A stretch of 64,000 nucleotides of DNA. Source: Cordylochernes scorpioides. Lineage: Eukaryota > Arthropoda > Arachnida > Pseudoscorpiones > Chernetidae. The notes beneath the pieces are model-generated. The model was not told the origin of the DNA, did not search any database, and worked only from the letters and a program-made list of their open reading frames with translations. The position numbers and the translations under genes were made by a program. Positions 1 through 63,810 of the stretch are shown piece after piece. The stretch is taken from NCBI GenBank assembly GCA_030710605.1, contig CP092874.1, forward strand, positions 26,310,026 through 26,374,025, written 5' to 3'. Every line of letters begins with the position of its first letter. The stretch's first letter is position 1.

Positions 1-115
1 AAAATAGTACAAATGTAATATTGTATTGGGATAAGGTGCATAAATTAAGAAAAAGGCTTCTCCTTATCGTGCAAACTGAAAGTTGCACGATAAGGAGATG
101 CCTTTTTCTTAATTT
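1..115 (+). repeat. HH-repeat terminal hairpin (solo end)
   Basis: Bases 50-112 form a near-perfect hairpin. AAAAAGGCTTCTCCTTATCG is followed about 35 bases on by its complement CGATAAGGAGATGCCTTTTT, with an 8-nt loop. The same termini bound the hammerhead element at 4.6-5.0 kb and 48.9-49.2 kb. The leader GGGATAAGGTGCATAAATTAAG also resembles those copies. This copy has lost the whole interior, including the ribozyme core. It ends at the left target-site repeat of the U6-R insertion. Confidence 0.7.
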
Positions 116-129
116 TTAAATATGTTATA

Positions 130-345
130 TAGCATCACGATTTTGAGGTGTCATCCTTGAGTATGGGGCCATGCTAATTTTCTCTGTATCGTTCCTATTG
201 TATTAGTTGTACCGCCGAACTGGTATCACAGGGACCATGCTAATCTTCTCTGTATCCTTCCTATTGTAGTAGTTGTACCGCCGAACCAGCGTAGTATCAT
301 ACTGGAATTAGGTCCTATGTGGACAGTGGTCTTTCCATTAATACA
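130..345 (-). mobile_element. U6 snRNA-derived retroposon, dimeric head, with target-site duplication
   Basis: Read on the minus strand, about 70 nt of leader is followed by two copies of a U6 5' domain and then a U6 3' domain. The 5' domain has the stem-loop TACC..TTCG..GGTA, then GATACAGAGAAGATTAGCAT with the ACAGAGA box and AGC triad. The 3' domain reads CAAGGATGACACCTCAAAAT followed by CGTGATGC. The insert lies between perfect 14-bp direct repeats TTAAATATGTTATA at 116-129 and 346-359, the mark of LINE-type retroposition. No snRNA promoter elements are evident. It is not a functional U6 gene because the 5' domain is duplicated and the sequence has diverged. Confidence 0.85.
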
Positions 346-494
346 TTAAATATGTTATAACACCTTGATAAAGGTTGGCGTTCAGCCGACTGAAATATTG
401 GTAAAATAAATGATATTTTGATCCAATATATGCCTTTTTATTTAAATATATATTTGTATAAATTCTATTGTTTATGTATATTTTATTGAAACTT

Positions 495-26055: not shown

Positions 26056-27630
26056 TACACTCGTGGGTACAAAACTTGAGGAAGTTTTATATTTTGATAT
26101 CGCCTGTCGTTTACTTTTTTTAAGGAGAGAGATAATTTTGTTCACACTTGATTACCTCGTGTCTTCAATAAAGGTCACTATAATATCTTTCAGAGTTATT
26201 TTCTGAATCCCACAATATACATGCTAAAAGGTACAACTTCCTTAAGTTCTGTCCTAGAGTGTATATTGATTATCTCGTGTGTCTTCAATAAAGGTCACTG
26301 TAATATCTTTCAGAGTTATTGTCTGAATCCCGATTTACATGCTAAAATGTACAACTTCCTTAAGTTCTGTCCTAGAGTGTATATTGATTATCTCGTGTGT
26401 CTTCAATAAAGGTCACTGTAATATATTTCAGAGTTATTGTCTGAATCCCGATATACATGCTAAAATGTACAACTTCCTTAAGTTCTGTCCTTGAGTGTAT
26501 ATTGGTTATCTCGTGTGTCTTCAATAAAGTTCACTGTAATATCTTTCAGAGTTATTGTCTGAATCCCGATATGCATGCTGAAAGGTATAACTTCCATAAG
26601 TTCTGTCCTTGAGTGTATATTGGTTATCTCGTGTGTCTTCAATAAAGTTCACTGTAATATCTTTCAGAGTTATTGTCCCGATATACATGCTGAAAGGTAT
26701 AACTTCCTTAAGTTCTGTCCTTGAGTGTATATTGGTTATCTCGTGTGTCTCCAATAAAGTTCACTGTAATATCTTTCAGAGTTATTGTCCCGATATACAT
26801 GCTGAAAGGTATAACTTCCTTAAGTTCTGTCCTTGAGTGTATATTGGTTATCTCGTGTGTCTTCAATAAAGTTCACTGTAATATCTTTCAGAGTTATTGT
26901 CTGAATCCCGATATACATGCTGAAAGGTATAACTTCCATAAGTTCTGTCCTTGAGTGTATATTGGTTATCTCGTGTGTCTTCAATAAAGTTCACTGTAAT
27001 ATCTTTCAGAGTTATTGTCCCGATATACATGCTGAAAGGTATAACTTCCTTAAGTTCTGTCCTTGAGTGTATATTGGTTATCTCGTGTGTCTCCAATAAA
27101 GTTCACTGTAATATCTTTCATAGTTATTGTCCCGATATACATGCTGAAAGGTATAACTTCCTTAAGTTCTGTCCTTGAGTGTATATTGGTTATCTCGTGT
27201 GTCTCCAATAAAGTTCACTGTAATATATTTCAGAGTTATTGTCCCGATATACATGCTGAAAGGTATAACTTCCTTAAGTTCTGTCCTTGAGTGTATATTG
27301 GTTATCTCGTGTGTCTCCAATAAAGTTCACTGTAATATATTTCAGAGTTATTGTCCCGATATACATGCTGAAAGGTATAACTTCCTTAAGTTCTGTCCTT
27401 GAGTGTATATTGGTTATCTCGTGTGTCTCCAATAAAGTTCACTGTAATATCTTTCAGAGTTATTGTCCCGATATACATGCTGAAAGGTATAACTTCCTTA
27501 AGTTCTGTCCTTGAGTGTATATTGGTTATCTCGTGTGTCTCCAATAAAGTTCACTGTAATATATTTCAGAGTTAGTGTCTGAATCCTGATATACAAGGTA
27601 CAACTTCCTTAAGTTTTGTCCATGAGTGTA
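26056..27630. repeat. MITE-B-derived tandem array (112/118-bp units)
   Basis: The array is bounded by MITE-B ends: TACACTCGTGGGTACAAAAC on the left and TTTTGTCCATGAGTGTA on the right. In between are about 12 units, each holding CTTCAATAAAGTTCACTGTA..CCCGATATACATGC..AACTTCCTTAAGTTCTGTCC..GAGTGTATATTGGTTATCTCG. Each unit therefore contains one internal terminal repeat. Units differ by GTCTGAATCCCG versus GTCCCG and by CTTCC versus CTCC. A 118+112+112 block is repeated at 26,521 and 26,863 (342-bp higher-order period). Repeated 75-codon ORFs are artefacts. Confidence 0.85.
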
Positions 27631-28373
27631 TGTATTTATACTTCCGCAGTTTGGTATTTATTGGGAGTTACAGCTTTTTTTTTTTTAATAGTTGATTTCG
27701 CCTGATAAGCATGGGTTTTTTTGAAATTCACAAGAGTGACTTTTAAAAAGTCTGTTAAAAAACGAATAGCTATTTGTATAGATTGAACCTAGTAGTTTCA
27801 AGCTGGGAAGCTAACGACGCCAAACCCAACTTGTAAAATAGACCGATGACAAATAACATACCTCTATTGACATCTCGCCAATACATGCGAAAGTGCACAA
27901 TCTGCGCTGTTAGTTGTATTTGCTATATACAGTAAATATGTAAATGTTCCTCCTCAGCCACCGCTGCAGAGTTTGATGGAAGATCACCAGCGGGTTTCCA
28001 GCGACATCACGTATTTCGCTATTTAGACCGATGCTGTGAACAGATACTACACATGTGACCAGGAAACGATAAGTTGAGAATGTGAAGAAACGGTTGAAAA
28101 AAAACAACTAAAAATCTAACAATGAGTGGCCAACAATTCTCTAACAAACCGAAATCAAAATGCGTTGCATCGAGCAACCAAAGCCAACAAAACAAAGAGA
28201 GAATGTGAAGAACTCCCACCCATGTGGCCAACACACCAAGCAGCAGCAGCAGCTAATAAACACGACATGTCGCCCGACACATGTGACGACACACTGTCCA
28301 AGGTCACACACAGCTCGGGTGGCGACGGCCCGGACTGGACTATGGACTATTTACACATCTCCCAACATACAAC
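27631..28373. other. Unannotated stretch
   Basis: No element recognised. Moderately complex sequence with two overlapping plus ORFs at 28,126-28,462 that run into MITE-B and lack domains. Confidence 0.4.
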
Positions 28374-28926
28374 TACACTCATGGACAGAACTTAAGGTAG
28401 TTGTATCTTTAAGCATATATATCGGGACAATAACTGAAAGATATTACAGTGACCTTTATTGAAGGCACACGAGATAACCAAGTGTAGAAACACTCATGGA
28501 CCAAACTTAAGGAAGTTTTACCTTTTACCATGTATATCGGGATTCAGACAATAACTCTGAAAGATATTACAGTGACCTTTATTGAAGACACATGAGATAA
28601 CCAAGTGTATAAACACTCATGGACCAAACTTAAGGAAGTTTTACCTTTTACCATGTATATCGGGATTCAGACAATAACTCTGAAAGATATTACAGTGACC
28701 TTTATTGAAGACACATGAGATAACCAAGTGTATAAACACTCATGGACAGAACTTAAGGAAGTTTTACCTTTTACCATGTATATCGGAACAATAATTCTGA
28801 AAGATATTACAGTGACCTTTATTGAAGACACACGAGATAACCAAGCGTGAACAAAATTGCCTCTGTATCCTTCAAAAAAGCAGGCATCAAAGACTTTCCA
28901 TTCCTTAAGCTTTGTTCATGAGTGTA
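28374..28926. repeat. MITE-B-derived array, about 4 units
   Basis: It starts TACACTCATGGACAGAACTT and ends TTTGTTCATGAGTGTA. Units of about 118-121 bp repeat CATGTATATCGGGATTCAGA, TCTGAAAGATATTACAGTGA and CCTTTATTGAAGACACATGA. It is opposite in orientation to the 26-kb array. The right end carries the GCATCAAAGACTTTCCATTC segment that marks the founder element's left end. Confidence 0.8.
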
Positions 28927-33315: not shown

Positions 33316-33420
33316 CCAATCAGACATCTATACATTTTTTCATGACGTACCGATTCACTTTAAGAAGGAAGCGGAAAGAACACTAAGATTACACCGCCTT
33401 ATACCTAACATGGATGTGTA

Positions 33421-34213
33421 TACACTCATGGACAAAACTTAAGGAAGTTGTACCTTTTAGCATATATATCGGGATTCAGACAATAACTCTGAAAGATATT
33501 AGAGTGATCTTTATTGAAGACATACGAGATAAACAATATACATTCATGGACAAAACTTAAGTAAGTTGTACCTTTTAGCATGTATATCAGGATTCAGATA
33601 ATAACTCTGAAAGATATTACAGTGACCTTTATTGAAGACATACGAGATAAACAATATACATTCATGAACAAAACTTAAGGAAGTTGTATTTTTTAGCATG
33701 TATATCGGGATTCAGATAATAACTCTGAAAGATATTACAGTGACCTTTATTGAAGACACACGAGATAACCAAGTGTATATACACTCATGGACAAAACTTA
33801 AGGAAGTTGTACCTTTTAGCATGTATATCTGGATTCAAACAATAACTCTGAAAGATATTACAGTGACCTTTATTGAAGACATACGAGATAAACAATATAC
33901 ATTCATGAACAAAACTTAAGGAAGTTGTATTTTTTAGCATGTATATCGGGATTCAGATAATAACTCTGAAAGATATTACAGTGACCTTTATTGAAGACAC
34001 ACGAGATAACCAAGTGTATATACACTCATGGACAAAACTTAAGGAAGTTGTACCTTTTAGCATGTATATCTGGATTCAAACAATAACTCTGAAAGATATT
34101 ACAGTGACCTTTGTTGAAGACACACGAGATAACCAAGTGTGAACAACCTCTTTCTCCTTTAAAATATATAAATAAAATAGATGACCGGCGACATCAAAGA
34201 CTTCCACGAGTGT
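33421..34213. repeat. MITE-B-derived array, about 6 units
   Basis: Starting TACACTCATGGACAAAACTT, units of about 118-121 bp carry GGAAGTTGTACCTTTTAGCA, TATATCGGGATTCAGACAAT and GAAGACATACGAGATAAACA or CACACGAGATAACCAAG. An alternating pattern gives a roughly 240-bp dimer repeated at 33,700 and 33,940. It ends with GACCGGCGACATCAAAGACT and TCCACGAGTGTTA, the far end of the founder element. Confidence 0.8.
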
Positions 34214-35306: not shown

Positions 35307-35319
35307 TTGTTTGGTGTAG
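35307..35319. repeat. Left 13-bp target-site duplication of the U6 array
   Basis: TTGTTTGGTGTAG. Identical to 37,258-37,270. It abuts the complement of the U6 3' end (AACGCTTCACG). Confidence 0.85.
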
Positions 35320-37257
35320 AACGCTTCACGATTTTGAGTGTCATCCTTGCATAGGGACCATGCTAATCTTCTCTGTATCCTTCCTATTGTAGTAGTTGTA
35401 CCGTGGTATCACAGGGGCCGTGCTGATCTCCTCTGTATCCTTCCTATTGTAGTAGTTGTACCGTGGTATCACAGGGGTCATGCTAATCTTCTTTGTATCC
35501 TTCCTATTGTAGTAGTTGTACCGCCGAACTGGTATCACAGGGACCATGCTAATCTTCTTTGTATCCTTCCTATTGTAGTAGTTGTACCACCGAACTGATA
35601 TCACAGGGACCATGCTAATCTTCTCTGTATCCTTCCTATTGTAGTAGTTGTACCGCCGAACTGGTATAACAGGGGCCATGCTAATCTTCTCTGTATCCTT
35701 CCTATTGTAGTAGTTGTACCGCCGAACTGGTATCACAGGGGCCATGCTAATCTTCTCTGTATCCTTCCTATTGTAGTAGTTGTACCGCCGAACTGGTATC
35801 ACAGGGACCATGCTAATCTTCTCTGTATCCTTCCTATTGTAGTAGTTGTACCGCCGAACTGGTATTACAGGGACCATGCTAATCTTCTCTGTATCCTTCC
35901 TATTGTAGTAGTTGTACCGCCGAACTGGTATAACAGGGGCCATGCTAATCTTCTCTGTATCCTTCCTATTGTAGTAGTTGTACCGCCGAACTGGTATCAC
36001 AGGGGCCATGCTAATCTTCTCTGTATCCTTCCTATTGTAGTAGTTGTACCGCCGAACTGGTATCACAGGAGCCATGCTAATCTTCTCTGTATCCTTCCTA
36101 TTGTAGTAGTTGTACCGCCGAACTGGTATCACAGGGGCCATGCTAATCTTCTCTGTATCCTTCCTATTGTAGTAGTTGTACCGCCGAACTGGTATCACAG
36201 GGACCATGCTAATCTTCTCTGTATCCTTCCTATTGTAGTAGTTGTACCGCCGAACTGGTATCACAGGGGCCATGCTAATCTTCTCTGTATCCTTCCTATT
36301 GTAGTAGTTGTACCGCCGAACTGGTATCACAGGGCCCATGCTTATCTTCTCTGTATCCTTCCTATTGTAGTAGTTGTACCGCCGAACTGATATCACAGGG
36401 GACATGCTAATCTTCTCTGTATCCTTCCTATTGTAGTAGTTGTACCACCGAACTGGTATCACAGGGACCATGCTAATCTTCTCTGTAACCTTCCTATTGT
36501 AGTAGTTGTACCGCCGAACTGGTATCACAGGGGCCATGCTAATCTTCTCTGTATCCTTCCTATTGTAGTAGTTGTACCGCCGAACTGTTATCACAGGGAC
36601 CATGCTAATCTTCTCTGTATCCTTCCTATTGTAGTAGTTGTACCGCCGAACTGATATCACAGGGGACATGCTAATCTTCTCTGTATCCTTCCTATTGTAG
36701 TAGTTGTACCGCCGAACTGGTATTACAGGGACCATGCTAATCTTCTCTGTATCCTTCCTATTGTAGTAGTTGTACCGCCGAACTGGTATAACAGGGGCCA
36801 TGCTAATCTTCTCTGTATCCTTCCTATTGTAGTAGTTGTACCGCCGAACTGTTATCACAGGGACCATGCTAATCTTCTCTGTATCCTTCCTATTGTAGTA
36901 GTTGTACCGTGGTATCACAGGGGCCATGCTAATCTTCTCTGTAACCTTCCTATTGTAGTAGTTGTACCGCCGAACTGGTATCACAGGGGCCATGCTAATC
37001 TTCTCTGTATCCTTCCTATTGTAGTAGTTGTACCGCCGAACTGTTATCACAGGGACCATGCTAATCTTCTCTGTATCGTTCCTATTGTAGTAGTTGTACC
37101 GCCGAACTGGTATCACAGGGGCCATGCTAATCTTCTCTGTATCCTTCCTATTGTAGTAGTTGTACCGCCGAACTGTTATCACAGGGACCATGCTAATCTT
37201 CTCTGTATCCTTCCTATTGTAGTAGTTGTACCGTGGAATAAGGGTGTACAAGTAGCG
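35320..37257 (-). mobile_element. U6 snRNA-derived tandem array, 29 units
   Basis: On the minus strand about 29 units of 59-66 bp each contain GGTACAACTACTACAATAGG, AAGGATACAGAGAAGATTAG and CATGGYCCCTGTGATACC, that is U6 positions of roughly 1-60 with the ACAGAGA box and AGC triad. The last unit continues into a U6 3' domain (GCAAGGATGACACTCAAAAT, CGTGAAGCGTT). Perfect 13-bp direct repeats flank the whole block. A 66-bp unit is 22 codons, which explains a 636-codon minus ORF. Units lacking CCGAACT (60 or 59 bp) occur at both edges. It is a retroposed U6 derivative that later expanded, not a cluster of U6 genes. Confidence 0.9.
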
Positions 37258-37270
37258 TTGTTTGGTGTAG
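37258..37270. repeat. Right 13-bp target-site duplication of the U6 array
   Basis: TTGTTTGGTGTAG, a perfect match to 35,307-35,319. The intervening insert is about 1.94 kb. Confidence 0.85.
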
Positions 37271-37299
37271 GTAATGAGGGGGCTTCAAGACTTTGGTCA

Positions 37300-37508
37300 T
37301 TTATTGTGCGTAAAACGCATGCTGATTTCTCTTTCATATTTTAAGATATGCGTAGCTTTCTCTACAGCGACAAAAAAAAAACTAGGCCATTTAAAAATAA
37401 TCTTTTTTTTTTTTTATGGCTTAGTTTTGTTTTGTCGCTGTAGAGAAAGCTACGCATATCTTAAAATATGAAAGAGAAATCAGCATGCGTTTTACGTACA
37501 ATAAATAA
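37300..37508. repeat. Near-perfect foldback, about 75-bp arms
   Basis: GTGCGTAAAACGCATGCTGA through GCTTTCTCTACAGCGACAAA returns as TTTGTCGCTGTAGAGAAAGC through CAGCATGCGTTTTACGTACA. Only one or two differences are visible, so it is young or under conversion. The loop is about 60 nt and rich in A/T. No ORF. Confidence 0.75.
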
Positions 37509-43362: not shown

Positions 43363-44165
43363 TACACTCATGGACAAAACTTAAACAAGTTGTACCTTTC
43401 AGCATGTATATCGGGATTCAGACAATAACTCTGAAAGATATTACAGTGACCTTTATTGAAAACTTACAAACAAAACTTAAGGAAGTTGTACCTTTTACCA
43501 TATATATCGGGATTCAGACAATACCTCTGAAAGATATTACAGTGACCTTTATTGAAGACTTACAAACTAAACTTAAGGAAGTTGTACCTTTTACCATGTA
43601 TATCGGGATTGAGACAATAACTCTGAAAGATATTACAGTGACCTTTATTGAAGACTTACAAACTAAACTTAAGGAAGTTGTACCTTTTACCATGTATATC
43701 GGGATTGAGACAATAACTCTGAAAGATATTACAGTGACCTTTATTGAAGACTTACAAACTAAACTTAAGGAAGTTGTACCTTTTACCATGTATATCGGGA
43801 TTGAGACAATAACTCTGAAAGATATTACAGTGACCTTTATTGAAGACTTACAAACTAAACTTAAGGAAGTTGTACCTTTCAGCATGTATATCGGGATTCA
43901 GACAATACCTCTGAAAGATATTACAGTGACCTTTATTGAAGACATACAAACAAAACTTAAGGAAGTTTTAACATGTATATCGGGATTCAGACAATAACTC
44001 TGAAAGATATTACAGTCACCTTTATTGAAGACTTACAAACAAAACTTAAGGAAGTTGTACCTTTTAGCATGTATATCGGGATTCAGACAATAATTCTGAA
44101 AGATATTGCAGTGGCTTTTATTGAAGATAACACGAGAAAACCAAGTGTGAACAAAATTGCCTCTG
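43363..44165 (+). repeat. MITE-B-derived array with 96-bp units
   Basis: It starts TACACTCATGGACAAAACTT. About 7 units follow of TTACAAACTAAACTTAAGGA, GTTGTACCTTTTACCATG, TATATCGGGATTGAGACAAT and GATATTACAGTGACCTTTAT. The unit has lost the CACGAGATAACC segment found elsewhere. At 96 bp it is in-frame, giving a 218-codon ORF on plus and 123 codons on minus, neither a gene. The right edge is CGAGAAAACCAAGTGTGAAC. Confidence 0.85.
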
Positions 44166-55014: not shown

Positions 55015-55080
55015 AAGTTAATTAATTAAATTAAGTTAGGTTTGGTTAGGTTAAGTTATTTTAGGTTAGGTTGGTTTAGA
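55015..55080 (+). repeat. TTAGGTT-like short repeat
   Basis: AGTTAGGTTTGGTTAGGTTA and TTTTAGGTTAGGTTGGTTTA. Such GGTTAGGTTA iterations are common in arthropod genomes. It is too degraded to call telomeric. Confidence 0.5.
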
Positions 55081-62365: not shown

Positions 62366-63402
62366 TTTACGGTATATAACTGGCGTGTTATTGCCTTATA
62401 TACATATTGTAGGCTGCTATAGCCTCGCTGTCCCTCCAGGATTGCCTGGTACAACACGGGGCCGGACATCTTCAGCAAGTACATTGGGGTCAAGCACGAA
62501 CAAAGGTGTTAAAAGTGGGCGAGAGAGAAAGGGGTTTTACAAATTAAGAAAGGAGTTATCGTGGAGATGGCCAACACAAAGAAGGTGAGAAAGTGATGGG
62601 AGATAAGTCGGTAGAAATTACGTAGCTGAGATAAGCTCGAGTAATTGTCTAGGGAGCTTTCTTTGAAACACAACTTGACGAAACAAAAGGTGCAACAATC
62701 CATCAAACACATGTCAACAATGTTGTCCTAGTTAGTAATGATATACTATCATACTATCTTTACTAGAGAATACAATATACTAGAATATAGAGTTACTAGC
62801 CTTGTCCCAGTTAGCAGTGGACTACTATAGCTTCACTAGGATACTAGAACACCTGTTTAGATATCCTAGCTACTGGATGGTACTTAGCCGTTGTACACTT
62901 AGCCACTTATAATCGCGACCAGGAAGGCCACTGAGTGTTGTTATTTCATCCCTTGTCTAGGTGAATTTTGCTAACGTGTGCAGAAGACTAGATAACATGG
63001 GGGATTCTGTGCAGATTGAAATGAGATCAAGGCAGTAATATATTAGTACGCTGTTACCGCTGCTGTTATATCAAGGATGGTCAAATGAGCACAAAAGATC
63101 GGTAAGGATCTCTGTTCGCGACTCCTCTTTGTTACCTTCGTGGATTATAGAATACAAGAAAGTAACAGACAGGGAAGTTCATCCAACCACGTCCTCAACA
63201 AGGGAGGTCCATCTGTCCCATGGCCACAGGTGGTGGACAGTTTTAGCCCCTATAGGACGTCGTCATAACAATATGTCAACTTCTCTACTCTTGATCAATG
63301 TCCTGTTTCTCCAGTAGTCTCTCTATCTTGAGCTATTTCCTTTATTTCTTCGCCGTTTCCCATCCAGTGTCCATGGAACTTAATTCTTTTGCTTCCTCTT
63401 AA
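62366..63402. other. Stretch without recognised features
   Basis: 62,740-62,880 has many TACTAG words (ATACTAGAATATAG and similar), a loose local pattern. Otherwise unassigned. Confidence 0.35.
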
Positions 63403-63475
63403 CCCAAAATAGCTAATTTAGAAGAGCGTTAGACTGAAGATCTAAAGGTCTCTGGTTTAATCCCGGGTTTCGGCA
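63403..63475 (+). pseudogene. tRNA-Phe(GAA)-like copy 1
   Basis: 73 nt. The anticodon arm TTAGA-CTGAAGA-TCTAA is perfect (anticodon GAA). The A box is damaged (TAGCTAATTTAGAAGAGC) and the B box altered (GGTTTAATCCC). The acceptor has mismatches at 1:72 and 4:69. Confidence 0.7.
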
Positions 63476-63486
63476 TCTTTTTTAAA

Positions 63487-63559
63487 CCCCAAATAGCTCA
63501 GTTGAGAGAGCGTTAAACTGAAGATCTAAAGGTTCCTAGTTTGATCTCGGGTTTCGGCA
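63487..63559 (+). pseudogene. tRNA-Phe(GAA)-like copy 2
   Basis: The A box TAGCTCAGTTGAGAGAGC is good. The anticodon loop CTGAAGA keeps GAA, but the anticodon stem has one A:C mismatch. The B box is GTTTGATCTC. Acceptor mismatches as in the other copies. Confidence 0.7.
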
Positions 63560-63569
63560 TCTTTCTTAA

Positions 63570-63642
63570 CCCCAAAGAGCTCAGTTGGGAGAGCGTTAAA
63601 CTGGAGGTCTAAAGGTCCCTGGTTTGATCCCGGGTTTCGGCA
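63570..63642 (+). pseudogene. tRNA-Phe-derived copy 3, anticodon changed to GGA
   Basis: The loop is CTGGAGG, so the anticodon position reads GGA (Ser codons) instead of GAA. The body is otherwise Phe-like (GAGCTCAGTTGGGAGAGC; GGTTTGATCCCGGG). Acceptor mismatches and an A:C in the anticodon stem argue against function. Confidence 0.7.
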
Positions 63643-63654
63643 TCTTTTTTAAAA

Positions 63655-63727
63655 CCCCAAATAACTCAGTTGGGAGAGCGTTAAACTGAAGATCTAAAGG
63701 TCCCCGGTTTGATCCCGGGTTTCGGCA
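63655..63727 (+). pseudogene. tRNA-Phe(GAA)-like copy 4
   Basis: A box TAACTCAGTTGGGAGAGC (G to A), anticodon GAA, T arm CCCCGGTTTGATCCCGGGT close to consensus. It has the shared acceptor mismatches. Confidence 0.7.
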
Positions 63728-63738
63728 TATTTTTTAAA

Positions 63739-63810
63739 CCCCAAATAGCTCAGTTGAGAGAGCATTAGACTGAAGATCTAAAAAGGTCCCTGGTTCGATC
63801 CCGGGTTCTA
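63739..63810 (+). pseudogene. tRNA-Phe(GAA)-like copy 5, 3' end lost
   Basis: Best internal promoter pair: TAGCTCAGTTGAGAGAGC and GGTTCGATCCC. The anticodon stem TTAGA/TCTAA is perfect with GAA. Two extra A follow in the variable region, and the 3' acceptor strand TTTCGGCA is replaced by TTCTACTTCC, so it cannot close the acceptor stem. Confidence 0.7.

Follow-up and report, generated by a model that had tools for sequence, protein, structure and literature searches.

The window analyzed here comprises 64 kb of the genome assembly of Cordylochernes scorpioides (C12:26310026-26374025; the assembly holds 2.62 Gb in 24 contigs) and carries a tandem array on its minus strand (37249 to 35320), in which 29 copies of the 5' domain of U6 snRNA follow one another head to tail and the final copy continues into a single U6 3' domain (Table 1). 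An earlier inspection of this DNA, here called the sequence-only reading, had described about 29 such copies running into one 3' domain. The unit number was determined by anchor counting, which confirmed 29 units and resolved the 28 unit-to-unit spacings into 25 of 66 bp and three of 60 bp; the TRF output for the array gave a period of 66, 28.8 copies, and 95% matches. Comparison with the Rfam U6 covariance model, which the sequence-only reading had proposed as a check, was likewise in its favor. RF00026, with a gathering score of 44 bits, matched the terminal unit together with the 3' domain (35310-35412) from end to end with 75.3 bits and an E-value of 2.8e-17. Another 23 RF00026 matches with 44.4-51.4 bits were obtained inside the array, whereby 21 of them correspond to model positions 1-63 or 1-65 of one unit and two cover two units. 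The ACAGAGA motif and the AGC triad had both been assigned to the array, and this also holds: ACAGAGA is unaltered in 26 of the 29 units and reads ACAAAGA in two, and the AGC triad is intact in all 29. The motif GTTCG is present in the 66-base unit.

The block is enclosed by the perfect 13-bp direct repeat that had been reported for it, with two exact copies lying 1938 bp apart; apart from these two copies, at 35307 and 37258, the sequence TTGTTTGGTGTAG is absent from the 64-kb window. The U6 5' end of the first unit shows 6 mismatches in 25 positions to a full-length U6 copy (L011). Since this 5' end is still recognizable and a U6 3' domain is present, the element contains both U6 termini. 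There is neither a U-tail nor a poly(A) at its 3' end (35320-35350). The element does not have the make-up of a functional U6 gene, as its 3' end GCGTT runs straight into the direct repeat; inspection of its 5' flank by eye revealed no TATA at the expected place. Three variants are each common to two to four units of this array and were encountered in none of the other arrays sampled; in addition, a two-unit motif appears again 13 units away. A coding function of the array was considered on account of a minus-strand frame that is open for 647 codons. This frame is explained by the period, because 66 bp equal 22 codons and the unit is without a stop. A Pfam search with three open frames, two from the window and one from a further array (L031), yielded a single match, which was under its cut-off.

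Table 1. Parts of the two U6-derived elements in the window, in window positions.
Feature	Positions	Strand	Remark
5' copy of the 13-bp direct repeat (target-site duplication), CTACACCAAACAA on the minus strand	37258..37270	-	
Eight extra nucleotides, CGCTACTT, between the upstream direct repeat and the recognizable U6 5' end at 37249	37250..37257	-	
29 tandem U6 5' domain copies, the first with a recognizable U6 5' end	35351..37249	-	
Single U6 3' domain, GCAAGGATGACAC...GTGAAGCGTT, abutting the direct repeat	35320..35350	-	
3' copy of the 13-bp direct repeat	35307..35319	-	
5' copy of the WIN2 14-bp direct repeat	346..359	-	
Extra 5' sequence of WIN2	297..345	-	
WIN2 body: two units with the family junction and a U6 3' domain	130..296	-	Rfam U6 70.7 bits at 119-226
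3' copy of the WIN2 14-bp direct repeat, TATAACATATTTAA	116..129	-	

A second element in the same window, WIN2 (116-359), lies outside the finding of the sequence-only reading. It is a two-unit relative of the array with the same junction between its units, a U6 3' domain, and a direct repeat of 14 bp. Its extra 5' sequence was considered as a possible part of the family and rejected, because a 27-base stretch from it has three other matches (≤2 mismatches) within 70 kb, so that there are four matches in all, every one on C12. This extension was found twice more at a distance of 66 kb (C12:26241388-26244121 and C12:26308177-26310356) in the same facing arrangement, which probably reflects a local segmental duplication. 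A palindromic stretch around TTGCACGATAAGGAG (window 40-110) directly adjoins WIN2.

Several other repeats occur in the window. At 63401-63807 (plus strand) there are five tandem tRNA-like units with a period of 84 and T-runs between them, which are of Phe type by the anticodon as read; the flanks of this array, CTTCCTCTTAACC and CTTCCCCTTATCC, resemble a degraded direct repeat, and it is possibly the same multimer process that acted here on a tRNA. Just upstream of the U6 array, at 37299-37506, a near-perfect MITE-like palindrome with 82-bp arms (98%) is bracketed by TGACCAAAGTCT, and related copies of it are located on C22 and C5. Four arrays of one related repeat (GTCTTCAATAAAGGTCACTGTAATATCTTTCAGAGTTATTGTC...) with periods of about 96-123 occupy 26159-27631, 28375-28845, 33419-34136, and 43374-44127, some of them on opposite strands. 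Interstitial repeats of TTAGG, which is described as the insect telomere motif (PMC7754599), are present at 55031-55079.

Genome-wide occurrence of the unit and its junction

The sequence-only reading had suggested that the genome be searched for other multimers. The unit junction, in which about nt 68 of U6 is joined to nt 1, was found in 21,688 copies in the assembly at ≤3 mismatches, and the reversed junction string, searched as a control in the same assembly, gave no match. Other multimers thus do exist, and this count rules out a single local satellite. Pattern searches at ≤3 mismatches, the counts of which are lower bounds for large families and come from partly overlapping patterns, yielded 244 array starts with a derived unit body (see below), 70 array starts with a U6-like body (7 of them exact), 222 array ends with a U6 3' domain (147 with an overlapping pattern), and 146 one-unit forms. 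Array starts, array ends, and one-unit forms are spread over many contigs. Some pattern matches are internal units, array ends, or members of tandem groups. Among the 100 derived-body starts listed, 11 begin with TACTTG and are probably internal units, and the two sets of starts overlap in at least one place (C13:55601076). Among the 100 one-unit places listed, some are array ends (C4:26111750) and several belong to tandem groups (C1:7578449-7578977, C6:97158600-97159160, C14:58470825-58471539, C3:165419170-165419371, and C7:18535970-18536202); the one-unit match at C1:170086295 is the last copy of a U6 trimer. Altogether, the U6 5' domain is iterated from 1 to about 74 times in the family and, as in SINE-derived satellites, many loci carry a scattered retroposon of which one part is tandemly repeated and the last unit extends to the end of the element.

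Twelve arrays with 364 units were analyzed in detail. The same junction is present in all 12, and the consensus of 11 of them has the derived body, which is distinguished from host U6 by four substitutions in one stretch (ACATATACTAAAATTGG in the host, ACAACTACTACAATAGG in the usual array unit); the junction differs as well. The remaining array, L001 (7 units), has the U6 body in most units and in its consensus, whereby both kinds of unit are mixed and all carry the derived junction. From the shared junction and the shared body it follows that the inserted templates already had the junction. The view that one U6 transcript was inserted at the window locus and was then made into a satellite there, as put forward in the sequence-only reading, is not supported by these data. 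Of 296 junctions read in the 12 arrays, 186 are GTGATACCAG and 62 are GTGATACCTG, with GTGATACTTG (10) and GTGGTACTTG (2) as rarer forms. The rarer forms resemble CCCCTGYG joined directly to the U6 start GTAC..TTG, which may hint at how the junction originated.

The mean pairwise distance amounts to 0.032-0.116 for units of one array and to 0.044-0.125 for units of different arrays. In several arrays, the units resemble those of other arrays as closely as they do one another, which counts against the family reading given below. The nearest unit belongs to the same array for 58 of the 74 units of L062 and 65 of the 73 units of L064, and for 1 of the 13 units of L070; it belongs to another array for 9 of 13 units in L070, 8 of 17 in L069, and 6 of 11 in L031. 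For the units of the window array it was located in the own array in 11 cases and in another array in one case, with 17 ties. In five arrays (L063, L064, L067, L069, and L070) the U6 3' domain is missing from the array end seen. A shared flanking element was considered as a carrier of the arrays and discarded, because by eye the flanks of the sampled arrays differ, except for segmental duplicates. In L031 (C1:1003946), one end unit has the opposite orientation to all others, which is the arrangement expected from twin priming; this array directly follows an open frame of 111 aa, which had no Pfam match at E 0.1.

Candidates for the true U6 genes of the host are L003-L006, L012, and L014, for which a TATA about 30 bp upstream and a terminal T-run were seen by eye; they form a group on C20 near 27.7 Mb and are also located on C3 and C6. 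The U6 copy search scored 48 of 365,745 first-look candidates and is therefore no census. Multimers of full-length U6 are present, too. L073 (C1:170086051) is a U6 trimer and L074 (C12:5292507) a dimer, the first copy of which is without its first few bases; in both, T-runs separate the copies and the last copy ends with GCGTTC at CT-rich DNA. It is probable from these two loci that jumps from one U6 RNA to the next occur in this genome. An exact search for end-to-end junctions of full U6 copies gave 5 matches at 3 loci. Because such junctions are rare, it is not proven that the family junction arose by a jump to nt 68. At C5:105991914, U6 copies are joined head to tail through T-runs in the same manner as in L073 and L074. 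Beside the 66-bp arrays there is a second kind of array, in which full-length U6-derived copies form tandem groups with a spacing of about 99-242 bp (C1:7578449-7578977, C2:24654092-24654343, C14:58470825-58471539, and C6:97158600-97159160). The first of these groups comprises five full-length copies at 113-bp spacing.

Direct repeats and changes of unit number

Direct repeats were analyzed in 22 elements with a U6 3' domain, consisting of 20 arrays and two one-unit forms (L076 and L079). Here, the last 45 bases of the 5' side, reaching at most 12 bases into the element, were compared with the first 30 bases past the U6 3' core, and 462 pairs in which the 5' and 3' flanks of different elements were swapped served as a control. 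Not included in the count were L063, L064, L067, L069, and L070 (array end without U6 3' domain), L031 (inverted end), L072 (a single neighbor of WIN2), L077 (5' end not fetched), and L073, L074, and L075 (full-length U6 copies). An exact direct repeat of at least 8 bp was detected in 13 of the 22 elements compared to 9 of the 462 swapped pairs, whereby ten of the flank pairs had been picked because both ends matched the search patterns, which favors intact elements. At a length of at least 9 bp the numbers are 9 of 22 and 3 of 462, and with one mismatch allowed and at least 11 bp they are 12 of 22 and 6 of 462. Thus, the retroposition footprint that had been claimed for the window array is supported across the family.

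No exact 8-bp repeat was present in the searched span of nine of the 22 elements (WIN2, L001, L068, L071, L079, C1:66.354, C2:63.2, C2:155.2, and C14:87.1). Two of these nine have a repeat with a single mismatch, namely L079 (14 bp) and C1:66.354 (11 bp), and the 14-bp repeat of WIN2 falls outside the searched span. L068 reaches only 9 bp with one mismatch, a length that is attained by 51 of the 462 control pairs. For L001, L071, C2:63.2, C2:155.2, and C14:87.1 there is no convincing direct repeat, either exact or with one mismatch. The one-unit form L076 has an exact repeat of 13 bp. Overall, direct repeats bracket elements of 2 (WIN2), 8 (L078), 21 (L061), 29 (window array), and 74 units (L062), and these target-site duplications are variable in sequence, as in retroposons mobilized by LINEs. 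The 3' ends of the sampled elements, inspected by eye, mostly stop at GTGAAGC, GTTC, or GTTCC, and none of them shows the poly(A) of L1-type processed pseudogenes. In several elements, as also judged by eye, TCC or TCT forms the start of the direct repeat, which overlaps with the end of U6; this suggests that a short pairing with the nicked target served for priming.

When the joined flanks of the window array were used as an empty-site query, no uninterrupted copy was found. Instead, a sister of the window insertion is present on the same contig at a distance of 110 kb, with its array at C12:26456332-26457475. Its upstream flank, direct repeat included, is 96% identical over 1143 bp, its downstream flank, from the direct repeat onwards, is 87% identical over 114 bp, and a U6 3' domain lies beside the downstream flank match at C12:26456350. 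By arithmetic on the flank matches, the direct repeats are 1938 bp apart in the window, whereas the sister has 1144 bp between them and is shorter by 794 bp or 12.03 units. We read the two loci as duplicates of one insertion, in which about 12 units were added or removed after the duplication. In a second sister pair, L069 and L070, the flanks are 97-98% identical and the unit numbers are 17 and 13; the first two and the last four units pair one to one and the middle ones do not. The sequence-only reading had left two routes side by side, expansion at the site after insertion and insertion of an already repeated template. Neither holds to the exclusion of the other: the shared junction shows that junction-bearing templates were inserted, and the sister pairs show that the unit number changes in place.

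Origin of the arrays and comparison with known systems

A complete element has the following plan: a target-site duplication, the U6 5' end, n copies of the 66-nt U6 5' domain (about nt 1 to 68), one U6 3' domain, and the second target-site duplication. It is likely, with a probability of roughly 0.8, that the window element belongs to a large and widely scattered family of non-autonomous retroposons that derive from U6 snRNA and are of LINE type without poly(A). In such a scheme, a LINE reverse transcriptase supplied in trans would copy a U6-like transcript that already bears the junction. Reverse transcription would start inside the U6 3' end, around GUUCC, often with the aid of a microhomology of a few bases (TCC/TCT) at the nicked target site. 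The first junction could go back to a reverse transcriptase that had copied one U6 RNA up to its 5' end and then continued near nt 68 of a second one, or to an equivalent duplication, at the DNA level, of roughly nt 1-68 within a source gene; because the 66-bp junction is inherited by the family, this first event cannot be read from the present copies. Unequal exchange or slippage would then lengthen or shorten the arrays in place. U6 is transcribed by Pol III from an external promoter, and a moved U6 copy has no promoter of its own. Therefore, a small number of active source loci or a new promoter would be needed for one derived unit to spread.

The main competitor of this scenario is a multimeric source RNA that was inserted whole, so that most of the variation in unit number would predate insertion and in-place change would be minor. 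We regard it as a tentative alternative and, on balance, as unlikely. It would account for the elements of 2, 8, 21, 29, and 74 units that end in direct repeats, and it agrees with the finding that TTTT, the Pol III stop, is absent from the sense strand of 11 arrays of 0.5-4.9 kb. The unit inherits this absence from U6 and needs two changes for a TTTT, and for this reason we do not claim selection against Pol III stops. However, unit numbers differ within both sister pairs, by 4 in one and by about 12 in the other, and with external U6 promoters the copies would be expected to be silent, with the possible exception of a few active source loci. A different proposal does without shared templates: ordinary single U6 retropseudogenes would have arisen independently, and each would have expanded into a satellite at its own site. 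In-place change of unit number is real, one-unit forms exist, and some variants are private to one sampled array and common to several of its units, all of which would fit. Independent expansion should yield many junctions, though, and the same odd junction in 12 of 12 arrays together with the same four body substitutions in 11 of 12, which also recur in the two-unit element, largely refutes it and makes it very unlikely.

A plain DNA satellite, born in a U6 pseudogene, might also have spread through segmental duplication or some other DNA-based route, and the direct repeats would then be a coincidence. Segmental duplication does spread some arrays (L069/L070, the window array and its sister), and tandem groups of full-length copies exist, such as that at C1:7578449-7578977. 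Against this stand the differing direct repeats at unrelated sites, each located at the U6 ends and more frequent than in the swapped-pair control, and we consider such an origin highly improbable. Scarcely credible is a retrozyme-like route, in which a reverse transcriptase would copy a circular 66-nt RNA round and round and the product would be inserted as a multimer. Metazoan retrozymes are described as short tandem repeats with a proposed spread via circular RNA (PMC7761336), but no ribozyme family reached the Rfam gathering score anywhere in the window, and a circle leaves unexplained why the arrays end in a U6 5' end on one side and a single U6 3' domain on the other. The retroposon family with junction-bearing templates and subsequent change in place is our preferred reading.

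Among known elements, SINEUs are snRNA-derived SINEs with U1 or U2 heads, which resemble the present family as small-RNA-derived retroposons and differ from it in these heads. SVA elements are poly(A) composites with a VNTR core; here the likeness is a retroposon with a variable tandem-repeat core and the difference is the poly(A) composite structure. Template jumping of non-LTR reverse transcriptases was reportedly shown by Bibillo and Eickbush in 2004 on R2. In this process, one enzyme copies several RNAs serially into one insertion, and the U6 trimer and dimer look alike in this respect; double template jumps are described for tripartite chimeras from a fungus and mammals (PMC2104539). In contrast, nt 1 follows about nt 68 in the 66-nt family, whose junction is inherited and not remade at each locus. 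Metazoan retrozymes, as non-LTR elements (PMC7761336), are similar in that short tandem repeats are moved by retrotransposition, but they differ with regard to the U6 ends and the ribozyme search mentioned above.

In its anatomy, the family is nearest to the squamate SINE-derived satellites (sSat), and these together with U6 retropseudogenes are the closest known kind overall. As described for squamates, sSat consists of tandem copies of a part of a SINE, the end unit of which continues to the SINE terminus (PMC10702118; Vassetzky, Kosushkin, Ryskov 2023). Both systems comprise partial tandem copies of a small retroposon with a terminal unit that extends to the end of the parent, at many loci; in both, the unit number differs by locus and homogenization climbs with array length. 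The parent is a tRNA-related SINE in sSat (PMC10702118) and U6 snRNA in the window family. Compared to the sSat described there, the U6 family additionally has both U6 termini and direct repeats around many arrays, and its sister copies show unit gain or loss directly. U6 retropseudogenes and chimeras are reported from mammals, birds, and a lizard, whereby the U6/LINE chimeras are attributed to template switching onto U6 and internal initiation is stated never to have been seen for U6/L1 chimeras (PMC4476161). Such processed pseudogenes and chimeras presumably share with the window family the LINE reverse transcription of U6 RNA with target-site duplications (PMC4476161). They differ from it, as far as that source describes them, in that the window family has a derived unit and internal iteration, and neither poly(A) nor an attached LINE was seen at the sampled ends. 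A literature search by title or abstract opening, with subscription journals mostly outside its coverage, found no U6-derived satellite and no U6 retroposon with tandem units.

A further idea, which we consider doubtful, is that a polymeric U6-like RNA is itself mobile, whereby source arrays would be transcribed whole and the RNA would be reverse-transcribed, inserted as polymers, and then resized in place. If this were true, there would be RNAs with tens of ACAGAGA/AGC catalytic-core domains, which might bind U6 partners, and a class of retroposons whose length is set by iterating a domain of a spliceosomal RNA. As a practical warning, a U6 model applied to the C. scorpioides genome would match array units by the thousand. 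The wider meaning of the family is that one genome links spliceosomal RNA, retroposon, and satellite, and that likely intermediate steps are preserved in it, from host U6 genes and full-length U6 multimers through one-unit forms and short arrays to long arrays. It can thus be asked by which steps a dispersed repeat turns into a satellite, and what share reverse transcriptase and what share DNA exchange have in this process, for which the sister insertions with shared flanks constitute a natural experiment.
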